Origin: Flavivirga amylovorans
GTDB lineage: Bacteria > Bacteroidota > Bacteroidia > Flavobacteriales > Flavobacteriaceae
DNA: 64,000 nucleotides
Reading direction: 5' to 3'
Assembly: GCF_030540875.1 (NCBI RefSeq)
Contig: NZ_JAUOEM010000001.1
Location: 496,001 to 560,000 of the forward strand
Of the stretch, positions 5,072 to 40,502 are shown piece after piece. The translations under genes and the position numbers were made by a program. Numbering within the stretch: position 1 is the stretch's first letter; every line of letters starts with the position of its first letter. The notes beneath the pieces were generated by a model that was not told the DNA's origin, did no database searches, and saw only the letters and a program-made list of their open reading frames with translations.

Positions 5072-6415
5072 ATGAAAAATATAATCACAATAGTATTAGT
5101 AGCATTAACCCTTTTCAATTGTAAGGCACAAGATATTGATGAAAAGCAGTTTTACATAGCAACAAATAAATTATCCAATAAAACAGTAGATTTAGTAAAA
5201 GACTATAAAGCAAATGCTAAAGGAGAAAAAGATGATTCTAATAAATTACAGAAAGCTATTGATGATTTGACAAAACTGAAAAGAGGAGGTACTATTATTA
5301 TTCCTGAAGGGAAATATAAATTAATTAGTGTTAACTTAAAATCCAATGTGCATATCAAAATAGATAAAGGTGCTGTCTTAATTCCACGTCTTGGTGGTAA
5401 AAAAACAAATATATTTTCATTAGGAGAAAAAGAGAAGCCTTCAGTTGTCAATGTAAGTGTGAGTTGTTCCCAAAAAGGCCAAATGTATACGGTTGATTTT
5501 TCTAATGTTGTTGGTAGTGCTGCTTTATTTAGTATAGGGAATACACGTAATTTCCTTTTGTCAGATTTCAAAGTAAAAGACAACTACACCAAGTTTTCTG
5601 CTGTGCGAATGGGAATTGATTTGTATAATGGTAAATATTATCATCCTACTAATGGTGTTATAAAAAATGCTACTACCATAAATTCACACTATGGATATGG
5701 ATTAATTCAGGCGCAATGTGGAGAAAATGTTTTGTTTAAGGATTTAAGCGGTATAGGTGGTGCTACATTAAGACTAGAAACAGGTGCGAAAAAGGTAAAT
5801 GATGTGCAAGCAACTGGTTTAGATGGTATTGTAGCTAGAAACATTTCGTGTAAAGATGGTAATTCTGCTGTGATGCTTTCACCTCATGCATTACAAAATG
5901 GAACAGTGGATATAGATGGAGTAACTGTCGAAAATACAGGCTTTGGTGTTAGAATTGAAGGTGGGTTTATTGCAAAAAAATATGATAAATCTAAAGTAAG
6001 TAAAAAAGGCGCTTTCAAGCATATAAAGGTAAATAATGTAAAAGCTACCTATGGAAATACTGCGCAATTAAAATCTAAGCATTTTAAATTCATTCCTTGC
6101 GAATTAGTAAGTCAAATAAAAGAAGCACCTAAAGATACGTATGCTATTGGAGGTGAAAGTAGCAGAGCTATCTATTTAGCTCCAGCTGTTGTTGCTGTTT
6201 TAGATACTCATGAATTTCCTACAGAGGTTTCTAATGTTGAGGCTATTGGTTTTGTTACTCCTGCAGTCATAAAAGAAGAAGATGTTCACGATTGTGATTT
6301 GAATTTACAAAAGGAGAAGAAAAAAACTGATAAAAAGGAAAAGAAAGGTAAAAAGAAGAAAAACAAGAAGAAGAAAAATAAAAAGGAAAAAGTAGAAGAA
6401 GAGCAAGAAGATTAA
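5072..6415 (+). CDS. GH82-like (iota-carrageenase family) parallel beta-helix enzyme with Lys-rich tail
   Basis: This probable endo-hydrolase acts on iota-carrageenan or a related sulfated galactan. The 447-aa product has a signal peptide (cleavage near CKAQ), a pectate-lyase-like N-cap (DDSNKLQKAIDDL, GGTIIIPEGKY) and beta-helix coils. Its core contains YGYGLIQAQ, TLRLETG and SPH. Gln213, Glu236 and His272 are spaced -23/0/+36, exactly matching Gln222/Glu245/His281 of the Alteromonas fortis enzyme as I remember that numbering; Gly-Tyr and Arg234 also sit at conserved distances. Glu236 would be the acid catalyst. The position of the proposed base Asp247 is Gly (E-T-G), so the base is uncertain or activity is altered. 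About 19 of the last 34 residues are Lys. A second copy follows the GH95 gene. An alternative is a related beta-helix lyase, but the residue spacing argues for GH82. Confidence 0.8.
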   Translation: MKNIITIVLVALTLFNCKAQDIDEKQFYIATNKLSNKTVDLVKDYKANAKGEKDDSNKLQKAIDDLTKLKRGGTIIIPEGKYKLISVNLKSNVHIKIDKGAVLIPRLGGKKTNIFSLGEKEKPSVVNVSVSCSQKGQMYTVDFSNVVGSAALFSIGNTRNFLLSDFKVKDNYTKFSAVRMGIDLYNGKYYHPTNGVIKNATTINSHYGYGLIQAQCGENVLFKDLSGIGGATLRLETGAKKVNDVQATGLDGIVARNISCKDGNSAVMLSPHALQNGTVDIDGVTVENTGFGVRIEGGFIAKKYDKSKVSKKGAFKHIKVNNVKATYGNTAQLKSKHFKFIPCELVSQIKEAPKDTYAIGGESSRAIYLAPAVVAVLDTHEFPTEVSNVEAIGFVTPAVIKEEDVHDCDLNLQKEKKKTDKKEKKGKKKKNKKKKNKKEKVEEEQED

Positions 6416-9074: not shown

Positions 9075-9142
9075 TACTAACTGATAATACAAAAGAGTCC
9101 GTTTGAATGATTTCGAAGGGAGAAAAATTATACCGAGAACAC

Positions 9143-10420
9143 ATGAAAAATATATTAACCCTTTTTACATTGATAAGCACCCTTTCTTTTGCACAAAAAG
9201 AAAGTGATTTTTATAAAGATACTAGTAGTCAGGTATCTAAAACCGTTAATTTAGTTACGGATTACAAAGCTGATGGAACAGATACAAAAGATGATTCAGC
9301 CCAATTACAAAAAGCAATCGATGATTTAACACAATTAAAAAACGGAGGTAAAATCATCATCCCAGAGGGGACATTTTATTTTTCTAATATCGAAATGAAA
9401 TCAGGTGTTCATCTTGTCGTAAATCATAAGGTAACTATCAGTCCAACGACACCAAAAGGATTTATCTTCCATTTCGGATTAAAATCAGGTATTAGTGCAG
9501 GGAAAACAATTGAGAATGTAAGTATTCGAGGTGAAGGAGGTCGTTTTACAGTAGACTATTCTATGGCACCCAACGGCAGAAAACATAAAATGGCGTTTGC
9601 CACATTTAAGAATGTCAATAATTTTATGATTGGCGATTTTAATGTACTAGATAATAACACGGCGTTATCTTGCTTAACGTTTAATTCATCGAGTTATGAA
9701 GGTAACTATTTTAGAGCAACAAATGGTATAGTAAGAAATGCTCATGTTACTAATGCCAGTTATGGTTATGGTTTGATTCAGGCACAAACCGGTAAAAACA
9801 TCTTGTTTAAAAATATTTCTGGTGAAGGTGGGATTACCTTGCGTTTGGAAACTGGTGCCGCGTTAACAGTGCCAATGCACATTAACTTAGATAATATTTA
9901 CGGAAGAAATATTTCGATTAAAAATGGACATAGTGCCACAGCCATGGGATCGCATACACGCACCAACGGACATGTAGATATTGATGGCGTAAGAGCAGAA
10001 AGTTCATTGTTTGCATCTATGGTAGGTATTGGTTTTGCAAATAAAGAACAAGCTAAATTAGGTTACACCGCAGGCCGTTTTGCTCCAACCTCTACCATAA
10101 AAAATGTACATGCTATTTATGGAACACAAGCACAGCACAAACCAAAAAATGTTAGGCAATTACCTTGTGAATTAAGAACATTTATGAGTACAACACTAAA
10201 TCCAGATGGTGCCAGTTATAAAGGACCATCTATTGCAGCAATTAAAAATAGCGACCCAAAGATTACCATCGAAGACGTAACTTATGAAGGCTTTTTACCG
10301 AGTCAGAAAATAAAAGTTAACAAGGAATTTCAAATTACCTGTGAAGGTAATGATTGGAAGCCTGAAAAAGAGGTAAAGTATCACGATAATAAAAAGAAAA
10401 ACAAAAAGAAAAAGCATTAA
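9143..10420 (+). CDS. Second GH82-like (iota-carrageenase family) beta-helix enzyme
   Basis: This paralog of the 5072 gene is a predicted extracellular endo-hydrolase of carrageenan-type galactan. I chose the ATG at 9143 because it gives a clean Sec signal (MKNILTLFTLISTLSFAQ); an ATG at 9107 would add twelve charged residues in front. The 425-aa product shares the N-cap KDDSAQLQKAIDDLTQLK and the core YGYGLIQAQ / TLRLETG. Gln213 and Glu236 align with the first copy; the following His is at 271, one residue closer. As in copy one, the residue two after the catalytic Glu is Gly, not Asp. The tail NKKKNKKKKH is again strongly basic. It lies 18 bp before the next sulfatase. The two copies differ most in the middle coils, suggesting different sulfation preferences. 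Confidence 0.8.
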   Translation: MKNILTLFTLISTLSFAQKESDFYKDTSSQVSKTVNLVTDYKADGTDTKDDSAQLQKAIDDLTQLKNGGKIIIPEGTFYFSNIEMKSGVHLVVNHKVTISPTTPKGFIFHFGLKSGISAGKTIENVSIRGEGGRFTVDYSMAPNGRKHKMAFATFKNVNNFMIGDFNVLDNNTALSCLTFNSSSYEGNYFRATNGIVRNAHVTNASYGYGLIQAQTGKNILFKNISGEGGITLRLETGAALTVPMHINLDNIYGRNISIKNGHSATAMGSHTRTNGHVDIDGVRAESSLFASMVGIGFANKEQAKLGYTAGRFAPTSTIKNVHAIYGTQAQHKPKNVRQLPCELRTFMSTTLNPDGASYKGPSIAAIKNSDPKITIEDVTYEGFLPSQKIKVNKEFQITCEGNDWKPEKEVKYHDNKKKNKKKKH

Positions 10421-14946: not shown

Positions 14947-16014
14947 ATGAAAAATTCCAGAAGAGATTTTATAAAAACTACTGCCTTGGCTAGTGCAGCT
15001 ATAACAATACCAACCTATGGTTTTTCCATTATAAATAAACCAAGTTTAAGTAAACAGATTATTGGTCATGGCGATTTTAAATACCGCGTACATCAGCAAT
15101 GGGGGAATTTAAACCCTGAAAATACACCTGTAAAGAACTGCCATGAAATGGTAATGGATTCTAAGGGTAGGTTAATTATGGTGACTGATGAAGTTAAAAA
15201 TAATATCATTGTCTACGATAAATCAGGAAAGTTGCTTTCATCTTGGACACATAATATGAAATCTGCACATGGCTTAACGCTTTTTAAGGAAGGTGAAGAT
15301 GATGTGTTGTTTATTACCGAACCTTTAACAGGGAAAATTATAAAAACAACTATTGACGGAAAAGTGATTATGGAATTGCCAAACCCTAAAGAAATAGGGG
15401 TTTACGATAAAGATAATCCAAGAGAGCGCTACAAACCAACAGAAACGGCTATAGCACCCAATGGCGATATTTATGTAGCGGATGGATATGGTTCAGATTG
15501 GGTTTTACAATTTAATAGCAATGGAGAATTCATTAGAAAGTTTGGTGGTAAAGGGTTTAACGATGATCAATTAAGTAATGCGCATGGCGTGGCTATAGAT
15601 GATAGAGACCCAAATAACATTACGCTATTATGCACATCTAGAAAGCACAATGCTTTCAAACGATTTACGCTTGACGGTAAATATTTGGAAACTATTTATT
15701 TACCTGGAGCATTTGTGTGTCGCCCAGTAATTGATGGAGAGAATCTATACTCTGGTGTATGCTGGTCTAGATTAAAATATTTGGAACAAACACCAGATTC
15801 TGGCTTTGTAACTATTTTAGATAAAAAAAATAAGGTGGTTTCTAATCCTGGAGGAACCGCTCCAAAATACAAGAAAGGAAAATTAAAAATGATGGTTCAG
15901 GATACACCATTGTTTAATCATTGTCATGATGTTTGTGTGGATGAGGATAAAAACCTTTACGTATGTCAGTGGAATGCTAATAAATCTTATCCTATAAAAT
16001 TAGAGCGTGTATAA
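14947..16014 (+). CDS. Tat-exported NHL-repeat six-bladed beta-propeller protein
   Basis: The 355-aa product begins MKNSRRDFIKTTALASAA, a twin-arginine signal, so it is probably exported folded. The mature part shows NHL-type repeats: CHEMVMDSKGRLIMVTD, ETAIAPNGDIYVADGYG, HGVAIDDRD and CHDVCVDEDKNLYVCQW. The His- and Cys-containing blade starts (NCHEMV, HCHDVC) are notable and could bind metal. It overlaps the GTG-initiated frame of the next gene by 8 bp and heads a four-gene cassette with two cytochrome c domains and a DUF1501 protein. Similar propellers accompany DUF1549/DUF1553 genes in Planctomycetes. The biochemical role is unknown; a folded, possibly metal-containing periplasmic protein serving a redox or hydrolytic cassette is a reasonable inference. 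Confidence 0.75.
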   Translation: MKNSRRDFIKTTALASAAITIPTYGFSIINKPSLSKQIIGHGDFKYRVHQQWGNLNPENTPVKNCHEMVMDSKGRLIMVTDEVKNNIIVYDKSGKLLSSWTHNMKSAHGLTLFKEGEDDVLFITEPLTGKIIKTTIDGKVIMELPNPKEIGVYDKDNPRERYKPTETAIAPNGDIYVADGYGSDWVLQFNSNGEFIRKFGGKGFNDDQLSNAHGVAIDDRDPNNITLLCTSRKHNAFKRFTLDGKYLETIYLPGAFVCRPVIDGENLYSGVCWSRLKYLEQTPDSGFVTILDKKNKVVSNPGGTAPKYKKGKLKMMVQDTPLFNHCHDVCVDEDKNLYVCQWNANKSYPIKLERV

Positions 16015-16018
16015 ACCT

Positions 16019-18337
16019 ATGAAGAATCTATTAGTTATATGTTTGGTGGTTGCACTTTTAGTGTCTTGCAAAAAGGAAAGTAAATATGTTACGATTCCAG
16101 AAAAACCTGTGCCAGAATTGGTAAGTTATAATTTTGATGTGCGTCCAATTTTATCAGATAAATGCTTTAACTGTCACGGGCCGGATGCAAACAAAAGATT
16201 TGCCGATTTACGTTTAGATACACCAGATGGCGCTTATGCAACCTTAAAAGACAACAAGAATCAGTTTGTTATTGTGCCTCATAAACCCAAAGAATCTCAA
16301 GCATTTTTGCGTATTACGAGTAAAGACACCTCAGAAGTAATGCCGCCATTAGAGACAAATTTAAAGTTAACAGCTTACGAAAAAAAGGTCATCAAAAAAT
16401 GGATTAAACAAGGAGCTACTTACGAAAAACATTGGGCATTCCAAACGGTTAAAAAACCTGAATTACCACAAATAGAACATACAGATTGGGTAAATAATGA
16501 GATTGATTATTTTGTACTGGAGAAACAAAAAGAGAACAGTTTAACTCCTAATAATCGCGCAGATAAATCCCGTTTATTGAAACGTGTATCTTTTGATATT
16601 ACAGGGTTGCCACCAACAGTTGAAATGCAACAACGCTTTTTAGAAGATACTTCTCCAAATGCTTATGAGAAGATTATAGATGAATTATTAGCAAGCAAGC
16701 ATTATGGCGAAAAAATGGCAAGCCATTGGATGGATGTATCACGTTATGCAGATTCTCATGGGTTTCAAGATGATGATTTAAGAACCATGTGGCCTTGGCG
16801 AGACTGGGTAATTCATGCCTTTAATGAAAATTATGGTTATGATACCTTTGTAACCTACCAGTTAGCTGGAGATTTAATGCCTGAAAGAAATGTGGAAACC
16901 TTATTAGCTACTGGGTTTAATAGAAATAATAAGGTAAACCAAGAAGCGGGAATTATAGTTGAAGAATTTAGAATTGAAGATGTAACCGATAGGACAAATA
17001 CCTTCGGAAAAGCCTTTTTAGGATTAACTTACGAATGTGCCAAATGCCATGACCATAAATACGATCCTATTTCTCAAAAGGATTATTATAGTGCGTTCGC
17101 TTTTTTTGATAAAACACCTTATAAAAACTCCAACAAAAATAATAATGAAGGATTAAGGGCTACAGCAGAACCTCCGTATCTTTCTATCTCTGATGAAATA
17201 GTAGCAACTAAACTCCCATTTATCAATAAAGAGAGTGCAGTCAATGTTGATGTTATGGTTGTTGAAGAAGAGCAAGTTGATAGAACTACACATGTTTTAG
17301 AAAGAGGGGTGTACGATGCTAAAGGCGATATTGTGACTCCAGATACACCAGAAGCAATTTTGGCATTTGATAAAGCTAAGTATTCAGAAAACCGATTAGG
17401 ATTGTCAAAATGGTTATTTGATGAAAAGAATCCGTTAACAAGCCGTGTTTTTGTAAATAGAGTTTGGCAAGAAATTTTCGGTAAGGGCATTGTAAAAACA
17501 TCAGGAGATTTTGGAATGCAAGGCAACTTACCAACACATGTAGGTTTGCTTAATTGGCTATCAGCAGATCTTATGGAACACAATTGGGATATGAAACGTT
17601 TGGTAAAAACGATTGTAATGTCATCCACTTACCAGCAATCATCAGTCATCTCTCCAGAAAAATTGGCTTTAGATCCTGATAATAAATATTTGTCATGGTC
17701 GCCAAGGTTGAGGTTTACTTCAGAAATGGTTAGGGATCATGTATTAGCAAGTAGCGGCTTGCTAAACAATGAAATTGGAGGAAGAAGTATAAAAATATAC
17801 CAACCTGATGGTTTGTGGGAAGCCTCCTCTTCGGGAAGAGGATTTTTGTCTACTTATGCGAGGGATACTGGAGATGATTTATATAAAAGAGGCTTGTATA
17901 TTTTTACAAAACGTACATCTATGCCTCCTGTTCAAATGATTTTTGATGCTACAAGTAGAGATCAATGTGAAGTGCGACGACAATCAACAAGCACACCTTT
18001 ACAAGCATTGATTGTATTAAATGACCCTACTATTTTAGAAGCATCAAGAGTATTTTCTCAACGTTTAAATGAAAAGTCTAATTCTGTTGAAGACAATATC
18101 GATTTTGCTTTTAAAAGTATCTTATGTAGAAATATTAAATCCGAAGAAAAAGCACTTTTAGTAAGCTATTATAAGGAGAAAGAAGTCTATTTTTCAAAAG
18201 CAATAGAGAAAGCCAATCAGTTTATCAATGTTGGTGAATATCCATTATTAAAAGATGGAGATTCAGTAAAAATAGCAGCGCTTATGCAAGTGATACATAC
18301 CATTTACAATATGGAAGAAGCCATAGTTAAAAGTTAA
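16019..18337 (+). CDS. Lipoprotein with cytochrome c (PSCyt1), DUF1549 and DUF1553 domains
   Basis: The ATG at 16019 gives a clean lipoprotein signal (MKNLLVICLVVALLVSC); a GTG four codons earlier overlaps the upstream gene. The heme-binding CFNCH lies at residues 49-53 inside the typical planctomycete cytochrome motif CFNCHGPDANKRFADLRLD. It is followed by DUF1549 (WVNNEIDYFVLEKQ, RVSFDITGLPPT, HYGEKMASHWMDVSRYADS, ATGFNRN, CAKCHDHKYDPISQKDYY, which holds a second CxxCH) and DUF1553 (NPLTSRVFVNRVWQEIFGKGIV, GLLNWL, STPLQALIVLND). The length of 772 aa is normal to slightly short. The partner DUF1501 gene follows after 11 bp. The molecular function of these domains is not established; the two heme-type motifs imply electron transfer at the cell envelope. 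This combination is unusual in Bacteroidota and suggests acquisition from a PVC-group donor. Confidence 0.9.
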   Translation: MKNLLVICLVVALLVSCKKESKYVTIPEKPVPELVSYNFDVRPILSDKCFNCHGPDANKRFADLRLDTPDGAYATLKDNKNQFVIVPHKPKESQAFLRITSKDTSEVMPPLETNLKLTAYEKKVIKKWIKQGATYEKHWAFQTVKKPELPQIEHTDWVNNEIDYFVLEKQKENSLTPNNRADKSRLLKRVSFDITGLPPTVEMQQRFLEDTSPNAYEKIIDELLASKHYGEKMASHWMDVSRYADSHGFQDDDLRTMWPWRDWVIHAFNENYGYDTFVTYQLAGDLMPERNVETLLATGFNRNNKVNQEAGIIVEEFRIEDVTDRTNTFGKAFLGLTYECAKCHDHKYDPISQKDYYSAFAFFDKTPYKNSNKNNNEGLRATAEPPYLSISDEIVATKLPFINKESAVNVDVMVVEEEQVDRTTHVLERGVYDAKGDIVTPDTPEAILAFDKAKYSENRLGLSKWLFDEKNPLTSRVFVNRVWQEIFGKGIVKTSGDFGMQGNLPTHVGLLNWLSADLMEHNWDMKRLVKTIVMSSTYQQSSVISPEKLALDPDNKYLSWSPRLRFTSEMVRDHVLASSGLLNNEIGGRSIKIYQPDGLWEASSSGRGFLSTYARDTGDDLYKRGLYIFTKRTSMPPVQMIFDATSRDQCEVRRQSTSTPLQALIVLNDPTILEASRVFSQRLNEKSNSVEDNIDFAFKSILCRNIKSEEKALLVSYYKEKEVYFSKAIEKANQFINVGEYPLLKDGDSVKIAALMQVIHTIYNMEEAIVKS

Positions 18338-18348
18338 AAACAGCACCA

Positions 18349-19803
18349 ATGAAGAAAGAAGTTTTTGAGAACAATTTAAATATAAACAGAAGGCACTTTT
18401 TATCTAAAGCAGCATTAGGTTTGGGAGGTGTTGCACTAGGTTCGTTGTTAATGCCAGATTTATTAAAGGGAGCTTCTGATGCAAGTAATCAACTGCCTTT
18501 AGGGATGCGTCATTTTGCTTCAAAGGCTAAACGTATCATTTTTTTAGTGCAAAATGGAGCCCCATCTCAATTGGAAAGTTTTGATTATAAACCAAAACTT
18601 AACGAAATGTTTGGGCAGGATTTGCCAGCTTCAATACGAGGTGATCAAAGGCTAACTGGTATGACAGCAGACCAAACATCGTTTCCTTTGGTAGGCTCAA
18701 AATTTGGGTTCAAACAATATGGGCAATCAGGAGCTTGGGTAAGTGATTTGTTTCCAAACATAGCCAAAATCACAGACGATATTTGTATTGTAAAAAGTAT
18801 GCATACCGATGCTATTAATCATGACCCTGCATTAACGTTTTTTCAAACTGGAGCGCAAGTTGGTAGTCGCCCAAGTATGGGGTCTTGGTTTAGTTATGGT
18901 TTGGGTAGTGAAAATAAAAATTTACCAGCTTACTGCGTGTTATTATCAAAAGGTAAGGGTAACGGGCAAGGTGTTTATTCCAAATTATGGTCTAACGGAT
19001 TTTTAGATAGTACCCATCAAGGGGTGCAATTAAGTGCAAGTGAAGACCCTATTTTATATTTAAGCGACCCAAAAGGTCTGGATAGAGGTTTTAGACGAAA
19101 TATGCTTAATAAATTGGGGGAATTGAATGAGATGTCCTATCAAGAATTTGGAGATCCTGAGATTCAATCAAAAATTAAGCAGTATGAAATGGCATTTAGG
19201 ATGCAAACTGCAGTTCCAGAAATTACAGATGTTTCTAAAGAGCCAGACCATATTAAAAAAATGTACGGTAGCGATTGTATGATACCTGGTACCTATGCTG
19301 CGAATTGTTTATTGGCAAGAAAATTATCTGAGTCGGGTGTGCGTTTTGTGCAATTATACCATCAGGGTTGGGACCAACATAAAAATTTAGTAGGTGATAT
19401 TCAGCATCAAGCTAAAGATGTAGATCAAGCTTCTGCAGCGTTAATTACAGATTTAAAACAAAGAGGTTTATTAGATGAAACACTTGTAATTTGGGGAGGC
19501 GAGTTTGGACGTACCAACTACTGCCAAGGAAAACTAACCAAAGACAATTATGGTAGAGACCATCACCCAAGATGCTTTAGTATTTTTATGGCGGGTGGAG
19601 GCATAAAAGCTGGAACTTCTTATGGTGAAACCGACGAATTAGGATATAATATCATCAAAAACCCAGTACACATTCACGATTTACATGCTACGATTATGCA
19701 TTTAATGGGCTTAGACCACGAAAGATTAACCTATAAACATTTAGGAAGACGTTTTAGGTTGACTGATGTTCACGGTCATGTTGTTAAAGATATTATCACA
19801 TAG
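18349..19803 (+). CDS. Tat-exported DUF1501 protein (alkaline phosphatase/sulfatase superfamily)
   Basis: The 484-aa product carries a twin-arginine signal (NINRRHFLSKAALGLGGVALG) and the DUF1501 fold, which belongs to the alkaline phosphatase/sulfatase superfamily. Visible motifs are RIIFLVQNGAPSQLESFDYKP, the metal-site-like HTDAINHDPALTFFQTG, GVRFVQLYHQGWDQH, WGGEFGRTNY, GRDHHPRCFSIFMAGGG and HDLHATIMHLMGLDHERLTY. It lacks the CxPxR formylglycine motif, so it is not an S1 sulfatase. The gene sits between a DUF1549/DUF1553 cytochrome lipoprotein (11-bp gap) and a membrane cytochrome whose ATG immediately follows its stop, implying translational coupling. In PVC bacteria DUF1501 and DUF1553 genes are near-obligate neighbours in sulfated-glycan loci. 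The reaction is unproven. Confidence 0.9.
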   Translation: MKKEVFENNLNINRRHFLSKAALGLGGVALGSLLMPDLLKGASDASNQLPLGMRHFASKAKRIIFLVQNGAPSQLESFDYKPKLNEMFGQDLPASIRGDQRLTGMTADQTSFPLVGSKFGFKQYGQSGAWVSDLFPNIAKITDDICIVKSMHTDAINHDPALTFFQTGAQVGSRPSMGSWFSYGLGSENKNLPAYCVLLSKGKGNGQGVYSKLWSNGFLDSTHQGVQLSASEDPILYLSDPKGLDRGFRRNMLNKLGELNEMSYQEFGDPEIQSKIKQYEMAFRMQTAVPEITDVSKEPDHIKKMYGSDCMIPGTYAANCLLARKLSESGVRFVQLYHQGWDQHKNLVGDIQHQAKDVDQASAALITDLKQRGLLDETLVIWGGEFGRTNYCQGKLTKDNYGRDHHPRCFSIFMAGGGIKAGTSYGETDELGYNIIKNPVHIHDLHATIMHLMGLDHERLTYKHLGRRFRLTDVHGHVVKDIIT

Positions 19804-21918
19804 ATGAAGAAAATTACGAATATAACGATCAACATCGTTTTTTTTCTACACGTAGTATTAGCGTTTTTGTTGTTGTTTGAAGGGTATGTTGAAGTCCCTT
19901 TTTGGCTACAACCTTTAGGTAGAATGCATCCTTTGGTACTTCATTTTCCGGTAGCATTTATTGCGCTATTGGTATTAATGCAATTGTTTAAAAAGGCGAT
20001 AGATGGTACATCATTCAATACCATTAATTGGTTTGTTTTGTTATTAACATCATTTACTACGGTAATAGCAACTATTATGGGGCTTGTGTTGTCCTTAGAA
20101 GGGTATGAGTCAGAGCTAATGACATGGCACAAATGGATGGGGGTTGCTATTAGTTTTGTAGTATTTACATTAATACTTATTTATAAATATCAAAAAGTTT
20201 ACAAAGTACTTTTATTTGCATGTTTAATAGGCGTCACCTTTGCAGGACATTATGGAGCAGGTTTAACACACGGCACACATTTTATTACAGAGCCTCTTGT
20301 GGCGATGAATAAACCAAAAGTAAGCGAGAACACACCAATATATACTGGGTTTGTTCAACCTATTTTAGATGCAAAATGTGTGAGTTGTCATAACCCACAA
20401 AAGAAGAAAGGTGAGTTAGATTTAAGTACACTTGCAGGGGTTAAAAAAGGTGGAGAAAACGGCTCCGTCTGGTTAGCGCATCAACCTGATGAAAGTCTGT
20501 TTTTAAAGCGCGTATTTCTGCCAATTGAAGATAAAGAGCATATGCCGCCTGAAGGAAAACCACAACTTACAGATTCAGAAATTAAACTTATTCAAACATG
20601 GATTAAGCATGGTATAAATGATACCGTTTCGCTTGTTGGATTGCAAAAAACAGATACTTTACATCAGATAGTTAATAATAAATGGCTTAAGGAGGTTGGT
20701 GATAAAATTGTTCAGTATGATTTTGATTATGCCGATACAGATGTTGTTGAAGCATTGAATAATCCTTATACCACAGTAATTCAAAAATCCCATAAATCTC
20801 CAGCTATTGATGTTGCTATCTTTGGTAAAAAGTCTTTCAAACCAGAGTATATTTCAGATTTATCAAAAATAAAAGAGCAACTTGTCAGCCTTAATTTGTC
20901 AAATTTACCAGTTCAGGATTCACATTTAAACAATCTCTCAAGTTTTGAGAATTTAGAAGTTTTGATTCTAAATTCAACTCAAATAACAAACGATGTGGTA
21001 AAGCAATTGTTATCATGTAAAAAGTTGAAATCATTATCATTATCAGATACGAAAGTTGATGTTAAAATTAGCGATGACTTAAAAAAACTGGAAAGTTTGG
21101 AAGAACTGTACTTGTGGAATACCAACATGACAGAAGAGGATATTTCTTCACTTAGAGCAGCATTAAACGATGTAAATATAGTTGAAGGTTATATTAATGA
21201 TACAAAAGAGGAAACAATTTTGGCGCCTCCAGTTTTAGTAGACGATAAAAATATTATCAATTCAGTTGAAAAAATAACGCTTAAACATAAAATGGCAGGA
21301 GTAGAGATGTATTATACTTTGGATGGCTCTAAACCTGATAAGAACTCGTTGTTGTATAAAGCGCCTTTTGAATTAAACTTAAACGGTAAAAAAAGCAAAA
21401 CAATTAAAGCCAAAGCGTTTAAGAGTGGCTGGGAGCAAAGCAAGGAAGCAAAGTTTGTTTTTTATGACAAGGGGTTAAAACCTGTTGCTTTTGAAGTTGA
21501 ATACCCTAATATTCATGCGGATTATATAGCGCATGCAAATCAAATTTTAGTAGATGAAGTAAAGCCAGAAAATAAAGTAAAATATTCGAAATTTTGGGCG
21601 GTATTTAAGGATAAGCCTCTAATAGCAATAGCCGATTTTGGAAATAATAATGTGGTGTTATCTGAAATCAATCTTAACATTAGTGTTAGGGGTAAGAAAA
21701 TAAAAAAAAGCCCAATACAATTTATTGAAGTTTTGGGTAGTGATAACAAAACAGACTGGACATCTCTAGAAAAGAAAATATTTTTAAGATTGAATAAAGA
21801 AAAATTAAAATCATTAGAATTAGCAATACCAAAATCAAAATCTTACAGGTATTATAAAGTTTTTGTAAAGCATAATCCTAAGATAGAACTATTTGTAGGG
21901 CAAATTCTGTTTTACTAA
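19804..21918 (+). CDS. DUF2231-type membrane protein fused to cytochrome c, LRR and CHB_HEX domains
   Basis: The start codon abuts the DUF1501 stop. The 704-aa product has about four or five membrane segments in the first ~155 residues, with HPLVLHFPVAFIALLVLMQLF and MTWHKWMGVA typical of DUF2231. A periplasmic PSCyt1-type cytochrome c domain follows, with CVSCH at 192-196, KKKGELDLSTLAGVKKGGENG and HMPPEGKPQLTDSEI. Leucine-rich repeats occupy about 350-460 (LVSLNLSNLPVQDSHLNNLSSF-like turns). A chitobiase/hexosaminidase C-terminal domain (VEMYYTLDGSKPDKNSLLYKAPF) and a final beta region of carbohydrate-binding type end the protein. The layout suggests a membrane anchor that passes electrons and binds glycan. 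It closes the four-gene cassette; a 248-bp spacer without genes follows. Confidence 0.85.
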   Translation: MKKITNITINIVFFLHVVLAFLLLFEGYVEVPFWLQPLGRMHPLVLHFPVAFIALLVLMQLFKKAIDGTSFNTINWFVLLLTSFTTVIATIMGLVLSLEGYESELMTWHKWMGVAISFVVFTLILIYKYQKVYKVLLFACLIGVTFAGHYGAGLTHGTHFITEPLVAMNKPKVSENTPIYTGFVQPILDAKCVSCHNPQKKKGELDLSTLAGVKKGGENGSVWLAHQPDESLFLKRVFLPIEDKEHMPPEGKPQLTDSEIKLIQTWIKHGINDTVSLVGLQKTDTLHQIVNNKWLKEVGDKIVQYDFDYADTDVVEALNNPYTTVIQKSHKSPAIDVAIFGKKSFKPEYISDLSKIKEQLVSLNLSNLPVQDSHLNNLSSFENLEVLILNSTQITNDVVKQLLSCKKLKSLSLSDTKVDVKISDDLKKLESLEELYLWNTNMTEEDISSLRAALNDVNIVEGYINDTKEETILAPPVLVDDKNIINSVEKITLKHKMAGVEMYYTLDGSKPDKNSLLYKAPFELNLNGKKSKTIKAKAFKSGWEQSKEAKFVFYDKGLKPVAFEVEYPNIHADYIAHANQILVDEVKPENKVKYSKFWAVFKDKPLIAIADFGNNNVVLSEINLNISVRGKKIKKSPIQFIEVLGSDNKTDWTSLEKKIFLRLNKEKLKSLELAIPKSKSYRYYKVFVKHNPKIELFVGQILFY

Positions 21919-26828: not shown

Positions 26829-26897
26829 ATAATTAGCACATAGGTGTTTTCTTCTGTTTAAAAGAAGGATATCAACTATTTGAAATATAAACGTATC

Positions 26898-28058
26898 ATG
26901 AACAAGTTATTAATTATAGTGTTATCATTTTTAGTCTTAATAGGATGTAAAAATGAAAATAAAAAAGGTGTTGTTCAAGTTGAGCATCAACAAGAAGAAA
27001 AGCAAAAATCATTGGTTGATTTTTTTTTACCAATGGAACCACAAGGGGAGTTGATTTCTGAAGGCATTTGGGGTGCAGAAAATGTTCTACCAAGAGATGT
27101 GAAAAATGGATTAGAAGATCCTAAACTAGAAAAATGGTGCTATTGGGATGGCAGAATTGTAAAAGACGATGCTGGGAAATATCATATGTATGCTAGCAAA
27201 TGGAATCAGAGTTATAATCATAGTGATGGTTGGCACATAGGGTCAAAAGGCATGCACGCAGTATCAGATAACATTATGGGGCCTTATGAAGATAAAGGCT
27301 TAACATGGCCAAATTGGAAAGATGGTATAGGGCATAATGTTATTGGTTTAAGAATGCATGATGACCGTTATGCTGTTGTAACAAGTGAGCTAACACCTGG
27401 AGAAATTTTTGTGTCAGATAATCCCAATGGGCCATTTGAATTATTGGGACCAATAAAAGTGGAAGATCCTAATGGATTCGGAATGGGATTAGCAAGGTAT
27501 TCAAACCCAGAACAACCTCATTATGGGAATATGTCTAACGTAAAAGTAATGCTTAGGCCTGATGGTAAATATATGATTATAGCACGCTCTACAGCGCCTA
27601 TGATTAGTGAAAATGGCATTTTAGGACCCTATAAAATTATGGGAGATCGTATTTATAAAAAATATCCAAATCTACCTCAGACTAGAAATGAAGACCCAAC
27701 AATTTGGCATAGTGGCGGTTTGTATCATATCGTGTACAACCATTGGCCTACAAAAACATCGCATCATTTTACATCCAAAGACGGTATCAAAGATTGGGTT
27801 TATAGAGGGATTGCCTTTAAAAAAGGAGAGTCTAAAATCTTTAAATATACAGATGGTACCATTAACGATTGGCAATTTATAGAAAGGCCTACAGCTTATG
27901 TTGAAGATGGTCATGTGACACACTTCATATTTTCAGTAATTGATGTTAAAAAAGGACAAGATAGAGGCAACGACAATCACGCAAGTAAGATAGTTGTAGT
28001 GCCATTTGATGGTGAAGCATTTGATAAATATATGCAAGACCTAGTATCAGTAGAATAA
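26898..28058 (+). CDS. Five-bladed beta-propeller glycoside hydrolase-like lipoprotein
   Basis: The ATG at 26898 gives the lipoprotein signal MNKLLIIVLSFLVLIGC; a TTG six codons upstream is the only earlier option. The 386-aa protein is nearly all propeller: NGLEDPKLEKWCYWDG, KYHMYASKW, GWHIGSKGMHAVSDN, GHNVIGLRMHDDRYAVV, LRPDGKYMIIARS, EDPTIWHSGGLYHIVYNH, FTSKDGIKDW and VEDGHVTHFIFSVIDVKKGQDR. These motifs recur in the product at 39300 and, more loosely, at 13193. The fold resembles GH43/GH117 exo-acting hydrolases; I infer removal of a terminal sugar from desulfated fragments, possibly anhydrogalactose. It lies between two sulfatase genes (69-bp and 18-bp gaps). Confidence 0.65.
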   Translation: MNKLLIIVLSFLVLIGCKNENKKGVVQVEHQQEEKQKSLVDFFLPMEPQGELISEGIWGAENVLPRDVKNGLEDPKLEKWCYWDGRIVKDDAGKYHMYASKWNQSYNHSDGWHIGSKGMHAVSDNIMGPYEDKGLTWPNWKDGIGHNVIGLRMHDDRYAVVTSELTPGEIFVSDNPNGPFELLGPIKVEDPNGFGMGLARYSNPEQPHYGNMSNVKVMLRPDGKYMIIARSTAPMISENGILGPYKIMGDRIYKKYPNLPQTRNEDPTIWHSGGLYHIVYNHWPTKTSHHFTSKDGIKDWVYRGIAFKKGESKIFKYTDGTINDWQFIERPTAYVEDGHVTHFIFSVIDVKKGQDRGNDNHASKIVVVPFDGEAFDKYMQDLVSVE

Positions 28059-29899: not shown

Positions 29900-31327
29900 A
29901 TGAAGATGAAAAAAATTATCCAATTATCCCTAATGGCTCTTGTTTCAATTGCAAATAGTCAGCAACCAAAAGAAGGAGGTTCAAATTGGAAAATACAAAC
30001 CCAGAAAGAATGGGAGGCATCATCAGATACAGCAAAAAATATCTCCTTTAAAAACGAACAGGCTTTATCAGATAGTTTGGTGAGTTCGTATAAAAGTATT
30101 GTCAAAAAGTACAAAAAAAAGAAAAAGGCAAGATCTATTGTATTCAAACAATCTGCCGCATGGGATAACTGGAAAGAGATTCCCACTTTGGCCGGTGATG
30201 AAATAGATAATGCTCAGGTTTTTATACCCGTTAAGCCAGGAGATTATTATTTGTTAGGAACCTACAAAGCGTATCAGTCTACAAGATTACCTGATAGAAC
30301 TTGGAAAAAAAGTAAATACAATGTAGATGATAGTCAAAAAGGCTATCACGCATGGCATAGTACAGATATGAAAAACTGGAAACACTATGGTCCAGTGACT
30401 AATCTTAGAGCTAAATGGGTAACAACGGCAGAATATGTAGATGGGAAATTTTATATCTATTATGATTTTCCAAATGATCAAGATCCGCACTTAATTATTG
30501 ATGAAGATTTAAAAGATGGTAAAATGGGGAAAGATATGGGGATGGTTTTTCCTGATCCTAGTCATGGATCAGATTGTTCTATTTTAAGAGATGAAGACGG
30601 ACTGTTTCACTTAATTTATGAAAATTGGGATCCTATTGATGCAAGAGCGCATTCTTTTGATTCTCCTTTGGCAGGACATGCAGTAAGTAAGGATGGAATA
30701 CATGATTTTAAAATTATGCCTACACCTGCCGTTGACCATAGAACAACACCAACAGGTAAGTATGGTGGGTTTAAACACAGTAGCGATAAAAAGCCATTAC
30801 AATACGAGATTCATACACCAGAGCAAAATGCTTATGGAGATTGGACAAATATTAAAATTGGAGACCGCTATTATTTATTCTGTGACTACGATCCTGTAGG
30901 TGAAGGAATCAAGTTGGGGTATTTTAGTAGTGATGATATCAATAAGCAGTTTGTTTTTGGAGGAAGTTTAGGGAAAGGACACCCAGACCCTACTATTGGG
31001 TTTGCAGAAGGGAAATTCTATTTAATTCAACAAAGAGGAGAAGTAGATTTTATAAGTTCTGGGCCTTGGGTAGAAGGCGTGGAAGCAAGAGTAGGGGTCG
31101 ATACAACCGGAAATGGCGAAATAAATGAATGGACAAAGTGGCAAGAAATAAAAGAGGAATACAAGCAAAAGCCTGGTTTTGTAAGGATTATCGATAAGAA
31201 ACCTGCTTCTATAGATTTAACTGATTTGCCTAGTGGTTATGGTTTTAGTTTTGAATACAGAACCCAAAAAATAGATGAACTAGATACCAAGGTAATTATG
31301 GATGAGGTAAAGTTATTATTCAAATAA
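29900..31327 (+). CDS. GH43/GH32-clan-like beta-propeller protein, exported
   Basis: The 475-aa product begins with a weak but plausible signal peptide (KKIIQLSLMALVSIANSQ), then a ~75-residue helical, Lys-rich segment (VKKYKKKKKARS). A five-bladed propeller follows, with DNAQVFIPVKPGDYYLLGTYK, YHAWHSTDMKNWKHYGPV, AEYVDGKFYIYYDFPND, HGSDCSILRDEDGLFHLIYENW, DWTNIKIGDRYYLFCDYDP and GHPDPTIGFAEGKFYLIQQRG. Blade-leading Asp residues fit the GH43/GH32/GH117 superfamily. It is clearly distinct from the other three propellers in the window. The last ~110 residues are beta-rich (PASIDLTDLPSGYGFSFEYRT). Substrate unknown; its place directly after a sulfatase and before the 902-aa enzyme suggests a role in exo-trimming. 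Confidence 0.65.
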   Translation: MKMKKIIQLSLMALVSIANSQQPKEGGSNWKIQTQKEWEASSDTAKNISFKNEQALSDSLVSSYKSIVKKYKKKKKARSIVFKQSAAWDNWKEIPTLAGDEIDNAQVFIPVKPGDYYLLGTYKAYQSTRLPDRTWKKSKYNVDDSQKGYHAWHSTDMKNWKHYGPVTNLRAKWVTTAEYVDGKFYIYYDFPNDQDPHLIIDEDLKDGKMGKDMGMVFPDPSHGSDCSILRDEDGLFHLIYENWDPIDARAHSFDSPLAGHAVSKDGIHDFKIMPTPAVDHRTTPTGKYGGFKHSSDKKPLQYEIHTPEQNAYGDWTNIKIGDRYYLFCDYDPVGEGIKLGYFSSDDINKQFVFGGSLGKGHPDPTIGFAEGKFYLIQQRGEVDFISSGPWVEGVEARVGVDTTGNGEINEWTKWQEIKEEYKQKPGFVRIIDKKPASIDLTDLPSGYGFSFEYRTQKIDELDTKVIMDEVKLLFK

Positions 31328-31491: not shown

Positions 31492-34200
31492 ATGAAAATC
31501 AAATTATCATTCACTTTAGTAATTCTGTCTTTATGCAATTTCACATGTACAGCAAATGATGAAAGCCCTAAAAAACCTAAAGATTTTATAACTAGCATAT
31601 CAAGCATTAGAAAGGTAGTGAGTACCCAAATAGGTAATGAGCCTGCTTTGTTTATTTCAGGATTAACTGGTGAAGTAGGGTGTTATACCACCAGTGGTAA
31701 AGAGCTCTGGAGAACAAGTACACCAAATAATAATGCACTTGTTTTTGATATTGAAGCCGAAGATATTAACGGAGATAATCAAGATGAATATATCGCAGTT
31801 TCAGCCGACGGTTATGTACATTGCTGGGATAGTACGGGAAAAACGCTTTGGAATTTTAGACCTGAAGTTAAAGTCCGTTTAAGTCAAGTTGAAGTTATAA
31901 AGACCGATGAAGGCGCATTTGTATTTGTAGGGGGAAATAATAATCGTCTTTACAAATTAGATAATAAAGGTGCTTTGGTTTCTGCTAATGAAATCAAAGG
32001 AGTTATGGCAAGAATGGAAGCAGGTAATTTTGTAGATAAAAACACCAATTCATTGTTTGTAATGACCTATACCCATGATAAAACAGGATATTCTTATGGT
32101 GCTTTTTTAGATCCTATAAGTGGAGAAGAATTAAAAGAATTCAAAACCACCAAATTGCCTAAAGATTATAAATCTCTTATGGTTACAGATGTTAAAGTTA
32201 GTGACGTAAATAAAGATGGAAGAGATGATGTCTTAATTTTTGGAACTACGAGACAATTCTTTCCAGCATTTTATGCCATTGATGGTGACGGAAACAATTT
32301 TGTAAAATTCACACCGACTACTAAAGAAGAAAAACAAGGCGCCAAGTACATTTATGCCCATGCTATTGGAGAATCATTAACTCCTATAAAGGATGAAATT
32401 ATCATGCGCCATGGACGTATCGTTTTTAAAGTAGATACCAAAGGGAAATTGATAGAAAGAACATCAACCAAAGAAAAGAAAGAACGTTTTGCGGTAAACT
32501 CAATAGTCTTAGAGAAAGAAAGTAAAACACTTTTTGTAGCAGGAGAAGTTGATGGCGGAAATGCAGTTTATGCATTAGATATTAACTCAAATGAAGGATG
32601 GCAAAGAAACCCTCCTTCAATAGGAAGAGTACCTGAAGTCAGGAAAAACATCAAGGAGTTATACAAACAGGTGATGTCTTTTGAATTACCATCTTATCAA
32701 ACCAAAGAGAAAGACCCATGGGTAATGGTGTATAGATCCAAGTTAGATCCGAAAATAAAGGATTTAAAGGGGGCAAATCTTACTATTATTCCTAGAATGG
32801 AATCTTGGAGGCAGAAATATGATCGATCAGAAATCATAGCAGCTGTTGGAGAAGAATATGGAAGTAAGAGAGATAGAAGGGGAGATTATGTAAATGAAGA
32901 AGCATATTTCTTGGATAGAGCTAGAACGTTTGAAAAAAACAAAGAGCCTTTTGTGATTTGGGCGGGGCATGGAAGCGATCCTTTTTATACAGATATCAAT
33001 ACCTTAGAAAAGATTTTAAAAGTTGCACCTACAACGTGTCATGGTTTCGTATTTGCAGAAATGGCAAAGACAGAAGATCCTCGTTCTCATTACTATGTAA
33101 ATACCATTATGCCAAGACTGGCCAAAGCGTGTAGAGAACATGGTTTTGCAAAATTATATTACAGATATAAACAAACATTTTGGGCTACAGATGTACAGTT
33201 AGAACCATGGCGAACATTGTTTTTGTCTAAAAAATACAAAGATATCGTAGTGCCTTGTACAGAAGATACCAATTCGTATACGCAAGATTTGAACTTAGCA
33301 GGAAGAGTCGGTATGATGATGGGAGGGTATGTTGATAATTTTGGAATGCGTATAGTAGGAGATAATGTAACGGGATGGAGACCTTTTGCTCCTGGCGGAC
33401 AAAGATTACCATCGTGTTTTGTTAGAAGTGGTGTCATGCGTGCTATTTATGGAGCTAAGCATGGGGTTATTTCTGGAAATTTTGATTTAGAAGATGATTT
33501 AGAGCTCAACCTATTATTTGCGCTCATGGGCTCGGGAGTTTTGCCTCAAGCAAATCAGGATAATATTGAATCTATAGGATCATGGCATGTGATTGATGGA
33601 CTTAACGAAAAATTTACGGAAAAAGAACACTCAGGGCATGATGTAGATAATTATGGAAAAGAAGATGAAGAAGCTGTATTATCTGTAACACAAGTACATT
33701 GGGCTGGATCTAGTGTGCCGGAATATGATTTTTCTAAGGCTTTAGGTGTAGATTACAGATGGTTAAATTTTGTTCCAGAATTACCAAATGGGATGATACC
33801 AATTGCTCCTGGAGAAAGTGAAGTTTCTTTAAAAGAGAATAATACACCTTATATCAAGAGTGATGTAAGTTATGGTATAGTGAATGGAGAACGTTTAGAA
33901 CCAAAGGAATTTGGTGCTATATTGATGGAAACTGCTAAAAAAGGAGCAGATAATTTATTAATCAATGTAAAAGGGGCTGCGTGGAGTGCTATTAGATTAG
34001 ATGAAAGTCATATTCGTGTTATATTACTTGATCAAGGGTACTTAGACCCTCAAGAGAGAAATGCAGTCATTACATTCAATAAAAAACAGCCTACATCTGC
34101 AAAAGATATTTTATCAGGTAAGCCATTAAAGGTTGAAGAAAACCAAGTAAAACTTACTGTGCCTGCAGGTGCTATGAAATTTATAGATATAACATATTAA
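31492..34200 (+). CDS. Large exported protein: beta-propeller plus unknown catalytic-like domain, possibly GH150 (lambda-carrageenase)-like
   Basis: The 902-aa product has a signal peptide (LVILSLCNFTCTAN). Residues ~35-370 form PQQ/FG-GAP-like propeller blades (GYVHCWDSTGKTLWNF, FVGGNNNRLYKLDNKG, VKVSDVNKDGRDDVLIFG). Residues ~395-780 are a large domain with conserved-looking acidic and aromatic blocks (PFVIWAGHGSDPFY, HGFVFAEMAKTEDPRSHYY, VPCTEDTNSYTQDLNLAGRVGMMMGG, GWRPFAPGGQRLPSCF). A small beta domain ends it. As I recall, lambda-carrageenase of Pseudoalteromonas carrageenovora is ~940 aa with an N-terminal propeller and a large C-terminal module of no known fold; length, order and locus fit. 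I cannot confirm homology by reading alone, so GH150 is a hypothesis. Upstream spacing is 164 bp; the next sulfatase begins 12 bp downstream. Confidence 0.55.
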   Translation: MKIKLSFTLVILSLCNFTCTANDESPKKPKDFITSISSIRKVVSTQIGNEPALFISGLTGEVGCYTTSGKELWRTSTPNNNALVFDIEAEDINGDNQDEYIAVSADGYVHCWDSTGKTLWNFRPEVKVRLSQVEVIKTDEGAFVFVGGNNNRLYKLDNKGALVSANEIKGVMARMEAGNFVDKNTNSLFVMTYTHDKTGYSYGAFLDPISGEELKEFKTTKLPKDYKSLMVTDVKVSDVNKDGRDDVLIFGTTRQFFPAFYAIDGDGNNFVKFTPTTKEEKQGAKYIYAHAIGESLTPIKDEIIMRHGRIVFKVDTKGKLIERTSTKEKKERFAVNSIVLEKESKTLFVAGEVDGGNAVYALDINSNEGWQRNPPSIGRVPEVRKNIKELYKQVMSFELPSYQTKEKDPWVMVYRSKLDPKIKDLKGANLTIIPRMESWRQKYDRSEIIAAVGEEYGSKRDRRGDYVNEEAYFLDRARTFEKNKEPFVIWAGHGSDPFYTDINTLEKILKVAPTTCHGFVFAEMAKTEDPRSHYYVNTIMPRLAKACREHGFAKLYYRYKQTFWATDVQLEPWRTLFLSKKYKDIVVPCTEDTNSYTQDLNLAGRVGMMMGGYVDNFGMRIVGDNVTGWRPFAPGGQRLPSCFVRSGVMRAIYGAKHGVISGNFDLEDDLELNLLFALMGSGVLPQANQDNIESIGSWHVIDGLNEKFTEKEHSGHDVDNYGKEDEEAVLSVTQVHWAGSSVPEYDFSKALGVDYRWLNFVPELPNGMIPIAPGESEVSLKENNTPYIKSDVSYGIVNGERLEPKEFGAILMETAKKGADNLLINVKGAAWSAIRLDESHIRVILLDQGYLDPQERNAVITFNKKQPTSAKDILSGKPLKVEENQVKLTVPAGAMKFIDITY

Positions 34201-34212
34201 ATTAAATAACAC

Positions 34213-35718
34213 ATGAAAATTAAATCATTATTATATATACTATTAGTAGTAAGTGTATATGCTAGTCCATCTTGTTTTGCTCAAAAAGACAAAGCAAATA
34301 TTCTGATCATTGTAACAGATGAGCATAATTTTAGAACACTTGGTGTTTATAAAGAGTTGTTCCTAGAGCAAGGAAAAACTGAATTGGCAAATCCTTGGGG
34401 AGAAGTACCGGGGTTTAGTACACCAAATTTAGATAGAATAGGACATGAAGGAGCAGTATTAACAAGTATGTATGCTTCTACACCTTCTTGTGCACCTTGT
34501 AGAAGTTCTATGTTTACCGGGAATTACCCACATACGGCAGGAGTTCCTAAAAACGGGTTTGCATTATCACCTGATGCATTGACAATTGCTAAAGTATTAA
34601 ATAAGTCAGGATATGAAACCGGATATTGTGGTAAATGGCACTTGCAAGAAGGAAATCCAGAACCAGGTTGGGCACCCGATGCTGACGTTCATGGATTTAA
34701 GCACAACAGATACATGTTTAATACAGGCCACTGGAAAAAGCTAGAAATGGAAGCTGATGGAGTAACGCCTAAAGTAGGAGGAAAAGGTAGGAGAGCAGTA
34801 CAGGTTTCTGATGAAAAGACTTATACTACGGATTATTTAACGGATAGAACGCTAGAGTTTATAGATGAGAATGGAGATAAACCTTTTGCTTGGGTATTGA
34901 GTTTTCCAGATCCTCATACACCGGATGTTGTTAGAGAGCCTTATGGTAGTATGTATAAACCAGAGGATGTAAAAGTTCCAGCGACCTGGACTACTACTGG
35001 GATGAGAGATGAGTCATACCCATATTGGATTAGAGAAAAACAAAGAATTCCAGAAGACAAAACACCGCAACAATATGTTAAGAGTGTTGCTGCTTATCAT
35101 GGAGCTGTAAAATGTATTGATGATAATATCGGTAGAATTTTAGCCAAATTAGAAGAGAAAAACATTTTAGACAATACCATTATCGTATTTTCATCTGATC
35201 ATGGAGATATGTTAGGAGAGTACGGACACGAAAATAAAGGAACACCTTATGAAGGGTCAGGAAGGATACCATTTGTAATAAGATATCCAAAGAAAATCAA
35301 AGCAGGAACAATCATTCATGAAGCTGCGAATGCAACAGACTGGATGGATACATTGATTACACTTAGTGGAATAGATCAAAAGGATTATAATGCTTCTAAA
35401 AATCAAGGAAGAGATTTGACCCCGCTATTGACAGGGACTCAAAAAGATTGGGAAGATATCACTTTTGTAAGATTTCAAAACTGGGCTTCAGCGATTACTG
35501 ATCGATATAAATTAATTTATGATACAACCGCTGAACCGTGGTTGATAGACTTAGAAATAGATCCAGAAGAAAGTACAAATTATTTCAATTCTAAGGATCA
35601 CAAAGAGATAGTAAAACAATTATCTAAAAAACTTCTAGAATATGGAAAATGGACGAAAGATGACATCGTATTAAAACCATTTATTCAAGAACGTTTAGAG
35701 AAAGCTATTAAAGGGTAG
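34213..35718 (+). CDS. Exported S1-family sulfatase with CAPCR motif
   Basis: The 501-aa product has a Sec signal ending CFAQ. The active-site motif is CAPCRSSMFTG starting at Cys93; the CxPxR core is intact but the usual Ser/Ala/Thr at position four is a second cysteine (Cys96), next to the future formylglycine. The first metal motif is TDEHNFRTLGVY (Asp-Glu rather than Asp-Asp) and the second SSDHGDMLGEYGHENKG. Sulfate binding is by CGKWHLQE. It is the closest relative in the window of the 23686 sulfatase, sharing FPDPHTPDVVREPYGSMYK and the metal signature. It follows the possible GH150-like gene by 12 bp. Confidence 0.92.
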   Translation: MKIKSLLYILLVVSVYASPSCFAQKDKANILIIVTDEHNFRTLGVYKELFLEQGKTELANPWGEVPGFSTPNLDRIGHEGAVLTSMYASTPSCAPCRSSMFTGNYPHTAGVPKNGFALSPDALTIAKVLNKSGYETGYCGKWHLQEGNPEPGWAPDADVHGFKHNRYMFNTGHWKKLEMEADGVTPKVGGKGRRAVQVSDEKTYTTDYLTDRTLEFIDENGDKPFAWVLSFPDPHTPDVVREPYGSMYKPEDVKVPATWTTTGMRDESYPYWIREKQRIPEDKTPQQYVKSVAAYHGAVKCIDDNIGRILAKLEEKNILDNTIIVFSSDHGDMLGEYGHENKGTPYEGSGRIPFVIRYPKKIKAGTIIHEAANATDWMDTLITLSGIDQKDYNASKNQGRDLTPLLTGTQKDWEDITFVRFQNWASAITDRYKLIYDTTAEPWLIDLEIDPEESTNYFNSKDHKEIVKQLSKKLLEYGKWTKDDIVLKPFIQERLEKAIKG

Positions 35719-39299: not shown

Positions 39300-40502
39300 A
39301 TGATTAAATCAAAATACATCCGATCAACCATTCTTCCTTTATTATTGGTCGTATCAATAGTGAGCCATGGGCAAAAGAAAAAAGAGGATATCAAACAGAA
39401 CCGTTTGACGGAGTTCAATAAAATTAAAAAGAAGAAAAAACATCCAAAAACACTTGTTAATTTTTTTAAGCCTATGCCTATTCAAGCCCCTCTTATATCC
39501 AAAGGTACCTGGGGTGAAACTTATGTCTTTCCAAGAGACACAGCCAATGGACTTGAAGATAGTAAATTAGAAAAATGGTGTTATTGGGATGGTAAAATTG
39601 TAAAAGACGATATTGGTAAATACCATATATATGCTAGTAGATGGCCACAATCTGTATCCCATAGTCAAGGGTGGCATGTCAATTCAACAGCTATGCATGC
39701 GATAAGTGATAATCCAATAGGACCTTATGTTGATACAGGTGTTGTTTGTCCTGAATATAAAGAAGGAAAAGGACACAATGTAGTTGGTTTAAGAACAAAA
39801 GATGGTAAATATGCGGTTATAAAAAGTTCTTTAATTCAAGGTTCTATTTTCTTATCAGATAAGCCTGAAGGGCCTTTCAAATTTGCAGGAGAAATAAAAG
39901 TTGATTTAAATGGACATTCAAAGAATGATGCTTACTTGAAGTCTGGAAGAATGGACAATGTTGACATTTTACTAAGACCAGACGGTAGATATATGTTAGT
40001 AGGAAGACCAACAGTAATTATGATTAGTGAAAGTGATGATATTACAGGGCCTTATAAAATTATTTCTGATAGAGTAAAAAATCACCCTGACTTACCTAAA
40101 AGTAAATTAGAAGACCCTAGTATATGGTACAGTGGCGGTATGTACCATATGGTGATTAACCATCATACAACTAATACTACTTATCACATGAGTTCTATAG
40201 ACGGAATCAATGATTGGAAATTTAGAGGAATAGCTTTTGGACAACAACATAATATCTTTAAATATACAGATGGCACGGTTAATAAATGGACCGTAATCCA
40301 AAGAATGACTGTATATGTTGAGGATGGACATCCTACTCACTTTATATTTTCTGTGATTGACACAAAAAAGGGAGAAGACAGACCTAATGACCAGAATGGT
40401 AGTAAAATTGTAGTTGTTCCTTTTGATGGAGTAGCCTTTGATAAGCATATGCAAGAGCTTGTAAAGGAAGAGGCTAAGAACAAAAAAATAATAAAACACT
40501 AG
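39300..40502 (+). CDS. Five-bladed beta-propeller glycoside hydrolase-like protein
   Basis: This 400-aa exported protein (signal ending VSHGQ) is a clear paralog of the 26898 product: NGLEDSKLEKWCYWDGKIVKDD, KYHIYASRW, GWHVNSTAMHAISDN, GHNVVGLRTKDGKYAVI, LEDPSIWYSGGMYHMVINHH, SIDGINDWKFRGIAF and VEDGHPTHFIFSVIDTKKGEDR. Unlike its paralog it has no lipobox. A very basic stretch (KIKKKKKHPK) sits just before the propeller and the C-terminus is again basic (KNKKIIKH). Its position between the paired sulfatases at 37449 and 40516 implies the sulfatases prepare its substrate. The function as an exo-hydrolase of the GH43/GH117 type is inference from fold-like motifs. Confidence 0.65.
   Translation: MIKSKYIRSTILPLLLVVSIVSHGQKKKEDIKQNRLTEFNKIKKKKKHPKTLVNFFKPMPIQAPLISKGTWGETYVFPRDTANGLEDSKLEKWCYWDGKIVKDDIGKYHIYASRWPQSVSHSQGWHVNSTAMHAISDNPIGPYVDTGVVCPEYKEGKGHNVVGLRTKDGKYAVIKSSLIQGSIFLSDKPEGPFKFAGEIKVDLNGHSKNDAYLKSGRMDNVDILLRPDGRYMLVGRPTVIMISESDDITGPYKIISDRVKNHPDLPKSKLEDPSIWYSGGMYHMVINHHTTNTTYHMSSIDGINDWKFRGIAFGQQHNIFKYTDGTVNKWTVIQRMTVYVEDGHPTHFIFSVIDTKKGEDRPNDQNGSKIVVVPFDGVAFDKHMQELVKEEAKNKKIIKH

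Follow-up and report, generated by a model that had tools for sequence, protein, structure and literature searches.

The closest described systems are the GH150 lambda-carrageenases of Pseudoalteromonas. In a 2025 JBC study, both GH150 enzymes assayed, including GH150B of Pseudoalteromonas distincta U2A, acted on lambda-carrageenan and were inactive on kappa- and iota-carrageenan; neither enzyme was crystallised and only a conserved cleft could be indicated (PMC12549532). In Pseudoalteromonas carrageenovora, PUL 8 combines GH110, GH2 and sulfatase genes with a "second GH150 lambda-carrageenase" (PMC6262041). The literature examined reported neither a crystal structure of a GH150 enzyme nor any of its catalytic residues. 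For comparison, Glu245 and Asp247 are the catalytic candidates of the GH82 iota-carrageenases (PMC4919138), and family GH98 includes endo-beta-1,4-galactosidases (PMC8730463), with the B. ovatus enzyme using Glu361 and Asp467 (PMC4491172). None of the papers examined mentions GH150 together with GH98, and PMC12549532 makes no mention of GH98.

The window, the whole 64-kb stretch of DNA that was analysed, carries a forward-strand gene that runs from ATG to TAA with zero internal stops and encodes a 902-aa protein (Table 1). The original prediction had proposed a relative of the GH150 lambda-carrageenases with an N-terminal propeller and a large C-terminal module, and a profile search against GH150 had been set beforehand as the test that could refute it. 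This search returned a strong match (CGLA_M, E 3e-53), and the assignment is borne out: three lambda-carrageenase-based Pfam domains, Beta-prop_CGLA, CGLA_M and CGLA_C, all above cut-off, span nearly the entire protein, and on these profile scores chance is ruled out. The propeller and the large module are seen in both the Pfam matches and a full-length AlphaFold2 model (mean pLDDT 90.8, pTM 0.91), in which the propeller (~39-363) is followed by a (beta/alpha)8 barrel (~410-700) and a C-terminal beta domain. The protein is likely exported, judging from a hydrophobic N-terminal segment that is modelled as a helix. Searches of PDB sequences with the protein, the full-family profile or the middle-domain profile gave propellers only, or no match.

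Table 1. Features of the GH150 gene and its neighbours (positions within the window).
Feature	Position	Strand	Evidence
GH82-like beta-helix protein	5072..6415	+	1h80 E 1.9e-51; RMETD vs RLETG: Glu245 kept, Asp247 -> Gly
Second GH82-like beta-helix protein	9107..10420	+	3lmw E 3.8e-42; RMETD vs RLETG: Glu245 kept, Asp247 -> Gly
GH43-like protein, directly upstream of GH150 gene	29900..31327	+	Pfam GH43 4e-8; 58% identical homologue near clade-B GH150, L095
GH150 clade-B lambda-carrageenase-type endo-hydrolase (predicted)	31492..34200	+	ORF, Pfam CGLA domains, tree, AF2 model
N-terminal hydrophobic signal-type segment, ~residues 1-23	31492..31560	+	Sequence MKIKLSFTLVILSLCNFTCTAND; model helix 2-17
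Beta-propeller domain, residues 59-360	31666..32571	+	Beta-prop_CGLA E 3.7e-26; VIA-align Z up to 28 vs propellers
Catalytic (beta/alpha)8-barrel segment, residues 388-800, GH98-like fold in model	32653..33891	+	CGLA_M 442-781; domain model pLDDT 88.6
Glu523, strand 4 end, proposed general acid	33058..33060	+	Invariant 104/104 clade A-C; role from order of strands and spacing relative to GH98 Glu361
Glu591, strand 6 end (strand 586-590), third invariant carboxylate	33262..33264	+	Invariant in 109/109 relatives
Tyr596	33277..33279	+	Family: R 39/39 clade B, R 4/4 clade C, K 60 and R 1 clade A
Asp624, after strand 7, proposed general base	33361..33363	+	Invariant 109/109 relatives; spacing to E523
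C-terminal beta domain, residues 829-901	33976..34194	+	CGLA_C E 4.5e-20
S1-type sulfatase, directly downstream of GH150 gene, 12-base gap	34213..35718	+	Pfam Sulfatase 3.5e-47
No-Pfam family, possible 5-bladed-propeller GH	39300..40502	+	Homologues beside other clade-B GH150 genes

Family searches and trees split GH150 into clade A (CglA-like, ~940 aa), clade B (~900 aa) and clade C, a smaller group whose members come from Planctomycetota, Kiritimatiellota and Verrucomicrobiota. The 902-aa protein falls in clade B in two trees (support 100/100 and 100), together with a P. carrageenovora copy (L004:19980-22679) whose neighbours, two GH110-type genes, a GH2 and sulfatases, have the same arrangement as PUL 8 and also fit the description in PMC12549532. 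The assignment to GH150 follows from this grouping, as PMC6262041 calls the PUL 8 copy GH150. From synteny and identity figures, we infer that the P. carrageenovora copy, whose 25.8% identity to CglA agrees with the 26% reported for GH150B, is the apparent orthologue of that enzyme. The window protein shares with these two its clade, three domains and conserved acidic residues, at 42% full-length identity to the P. carrageenovora copy, whereas its gene has no adjacent GH110 or GH2 and its sequence carries 25 unique changes at clade-conserved sites, with Tyr596 in place of Arg. It shares with the clade-A CglA of P. carrageenovora the domain order and the residues E533, E598 and D631 of CglA (E523, E591 and D624 here), but differs in clade, length and overall sequence (about 24-26% identity to classical CglA, 24% to the P. 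carrageenovora enzyme), so that substrate specificity is not directly transferable. Other GH150-related sequences in the collection include clade C members at 28-31% identity (L107-L110) and 916-aa relatives with the motif YWQGHGRDVYFY (L071:5092-7842, L076:3686-6436 and L097:17441-20191), which sit near clade-B GH150 genes and have clade A as their closest reference-set group (43-44%).

By sequence, the 902-aa protein is a divergent new member of an already known family, and the most divergent clade-B member found. Scanning 84,980 species by sequence pattern, an approach that an orthologue without both patterns would escape, gave no relative above 46% identity; an orthologue search with the single 902-aa sequence gave no match, and one in viral contigs found none. 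Searching with the family alignment recovered clade A, B and C loci, all at most 46% identical. Among the sites with at least 97% conservation across the other clade-B members, the protein deviates at 25, compared with 9 for the next highest member; where conservation across clades A-C reaches at least 96%, it deviates at only 3. Its terminal branch has a length of 1.23 (median 0.33). A broad tree places it as sister to every other clade-B row (SH-aLRT 99), a position with only 64% support under a mixture model with clade C as outgroup, and the AU test does not reject the alternative that it is a rapidly evolving paralogue of the other clade-B lineage in this genome (p-AU 0.07). Common ancestry with the clade-B copies of similar clusters (L095, L097) was rejected (p-AU 3e-6). 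The excess substitutions may reflect fast drift instead of a new specificity.

The most telling substitution stands close to a candidate catalytic residue. Position 596, five residues past E591, is basic in 104/104 clade A-C relatives, and the tyrosine found here is unique to this protein within those clades. Because the basic residue is lost near a candidate catalytic glutamate of an enzyme with a putative polysulfated substrate, Tyr596 suggests a changed sulfate subsite. E441Q is a weaker case, since it occurs in one clade-A sequence too, and R173A and R287I were set aside as telling changes because their columns were unstable between alignments. Two other GH150 genes of the genome, a canonical CglA and a further clade-B copy, lie at C1:124-146 kb, ~380-400 kb from the window gene, with GH110, GH2s and GH82-like genes. 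As a lambda-type cluster is already present, the window gene is an additional, third GH150 copy, which could be either specialised or redundant.

The active site is apparently intact, given that the family-invariant acids D496, E523, E591, D624 and D746 are all retained; D746 is invariant in clades A-C and D496 likewise, bar one exception. Three motif blocks that had been picked out beforehand as catalytic-site candidates are present and contain the family-invariant H493/D496 (GHGSDP), E523 (FAEM) and E591/T593 (CTEDT). The invariant D624 and D746 lie outside those blocks.

Whole-protein fold searches were swamped by the propeller and the barrel was therefore modelled separately, giving a confident (beta/alpha)8 structure for what had been described as a large unknown region. 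The 18 best Foldseek matches of this model are all GH98 (E 1e-6 to 1.4e-4). With VIA-align, GH98 structures score Z 18.6-21.9 and RgGH98 13.7, ahead of GH5_18 as the next family (12.9), and the best GH98 match (Z 21.9) covers 316 residues at rmsd 3.6. As modelled, the catalytic barrel has a GH98-like fold. At the level of sequence profiles, Glyco_hydro_98M (PF08306) gave no match to this domain at E up to 5 and is absent among 25/29 families listed for 59 members, and the middle-domain profile had zero matches among PDB sequences; the protein is for this reason not filed as GH98. The resemblance to GH98 (Sp4GH98, 2wmf; B. ovatus, 9h6f; endo-beta-1,4-galactosidases and an endoxylanase) extends to the barrel fold and the acid-base spacing, whereas identity to the barrel is ~10%, the accessory domains are other ones and GH98 substrates are non-sulfated. 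The GH150-GH98 link, in these models, is structural only.

The two catalytic residues of GH98 are 106 residues apart (Glu361-Asp467) and E523 and D624 are 101 apart, with the aligned ranges beginning 129 and 117 residues ahead of the respective glutamates. Enzymes of GH98 are inverting, and inversion was also reported for CglA (Guibet 2007). From the GH98-like barrel, the shared inversion and the residue spacing, E523 is proposed as the acid and D624 as the base, roles assigned by strand order and spacing against GH98. This match is the main general interest of the locus, as it names residues to mutate, predicts a mechanism for the whole GH150 family and makes its catalytic machinery testable. 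A more tentative proposal is that GH150 and GH98 form an undescribed clan with a common catalytic barrel and mechanism, in which the window protein could represent a further GH150 lineage for a differently sulfated galactan, alongside a GH82-derived group without Asp247.

The neighbourhood is rich in sulfatases, with 17 within the window. Other genes are two GH82-like, GH95, GH29, GH88-like, GH43-like, a DUF1501/DUF1553 set and three members of a family without Pfam match, two of which (13193-14905 and 26880-28058) are paralogues of the one listed in Table 1. The left flank of the window holds SusC/SusD-type genes, a GH29 and two further members of the no-Pfam family, and the right flank a GH2, a CBM9 and one more GH82-like gene, the third, which has a T9SS tail. 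The no-Pfam family, a candidate exo-glycosidase, recurs beside clade-B GH150 genes. Its members (in the window and at L044:7844-9001 and 10769-11983) are secreted, share many invariant residues and show a weak resemblance to GH43 (E 0.009-0.06). No GH110 was found within the 64-kb window, which counts against the main reading given below. One lies ~26 kb to its left (G000:C1:462000-479000, L156), 52% identical to a P. carrageenovora GH110, in a region that also carries a 1385-aa ORF and a sulfatase-like gene.

The GH82-like genes had been read, together with GH150, as a locus for two carrageenan types. The proteins at 5072 and 9107 are genuine homologues of iota-carrageenase, of a fold unrelated to the GH150 protein, but their catalytic pair is incomplete: with glycine for Asp247 in both they are not safely iota-carrageenases, which makes two carrageenan types doubtful. 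They may belong to a separate GH82-related group. By motif matching, not full alignment, R-x-E-[TS]-G occurs in ~30/42 GH82-like proteins of GH150 loci, including the two in the window, L045:8169-9704, L048, L071, L076 and L095.

Taken as a whole, we put a probability of about 0.8 on a secreted GH150 clade-B endo-hydrolase with an inverting mechanism through E523 and D624, likely acting on a variant lambda-type substrate. Such an enzyme would cut beta-1,4-galactosidic bonds of a lambda-type carrageenan in one step. The reaction would take place in the cleft that separates the barrel from the propeller, where Glu523 would donate a proton to the leaving oxygen and Asp624 (Glu591 is a further candidate) would activate water; the released neo-oligosaccharides would be trimmed by the neighbouring sulfatases and exo-glycosidases. 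The least certain step is the substrate, where a lambda-type galactan that is hybrid, less sulfated or sulfated in another way is probably preferred over fully sulfated lambda-carrageenan, given the third GH150 copy, the separate sulfatase-rich cluster and the tyrosine at a universally basic position near Glu591. The divergent copy could serve as a natural comparison for the determinants of sulfate specificity, which would be of use in the production of defined carrageenan oligosaccharides.

Alternatively, the protein could be an ordinary lambda-carrageenase, redundant with the genome's two other copies and changed by drift. All conserved catalytic-candidate residues are kept, clade B holds an enzyme active on lambda-carrageenan, and the deep placement is not firm, given the 64% support under the mixture model and a p-AU of 0.07 that leaves a joint origin with the other clade-B lineage of the genome unrejected. 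We consider this doubtful, however, as the gene lies in a separate locus with a content unlike that of the lambda cluster at C1:110-150 kb and has lost the basic residue that every clade A-C relative compared has conserved. Fast evolution along the long end branch could also indicate an inactive or decaying paralogue, for example a binding protein, but the untouched invariant carboxylates, the few deviations at the most conserved sites, the intact ORF and the confident fold model make this very improbable.

A shift of the GH150 fold to another sulfated red-algal galactan outside the carrageenans would fit the GH95, GH29 and GH88-like genes of the cluster and the GH82-like proteins without Asp247. 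Relatives of the GH82-like, sulfatase and propeller genes nevertheless recur beside other GH150 genes, and the lambda-restricted activity of both assayed enzymes (PMC12549532) likewise argues against it, so this reading is improbable.

Two further observations concern gene content. Positions 16007-21918 of the window carry DUF1549/DUF1553, DUF1501 and cytochrome-type genes that are typical of planctomycetes, here within a Bacteroidota sulfatase cluster, and similar genes occur near GH150 in Rhodopirellula (L128). A contig from human faeces labelled "Bacteriophage sp." (MT835799.1; L146:8001-11286) encodes a GH150-like protein whose alignment spans 96% of the query (25% identity), and is probably a mislabelled bacterial contig.
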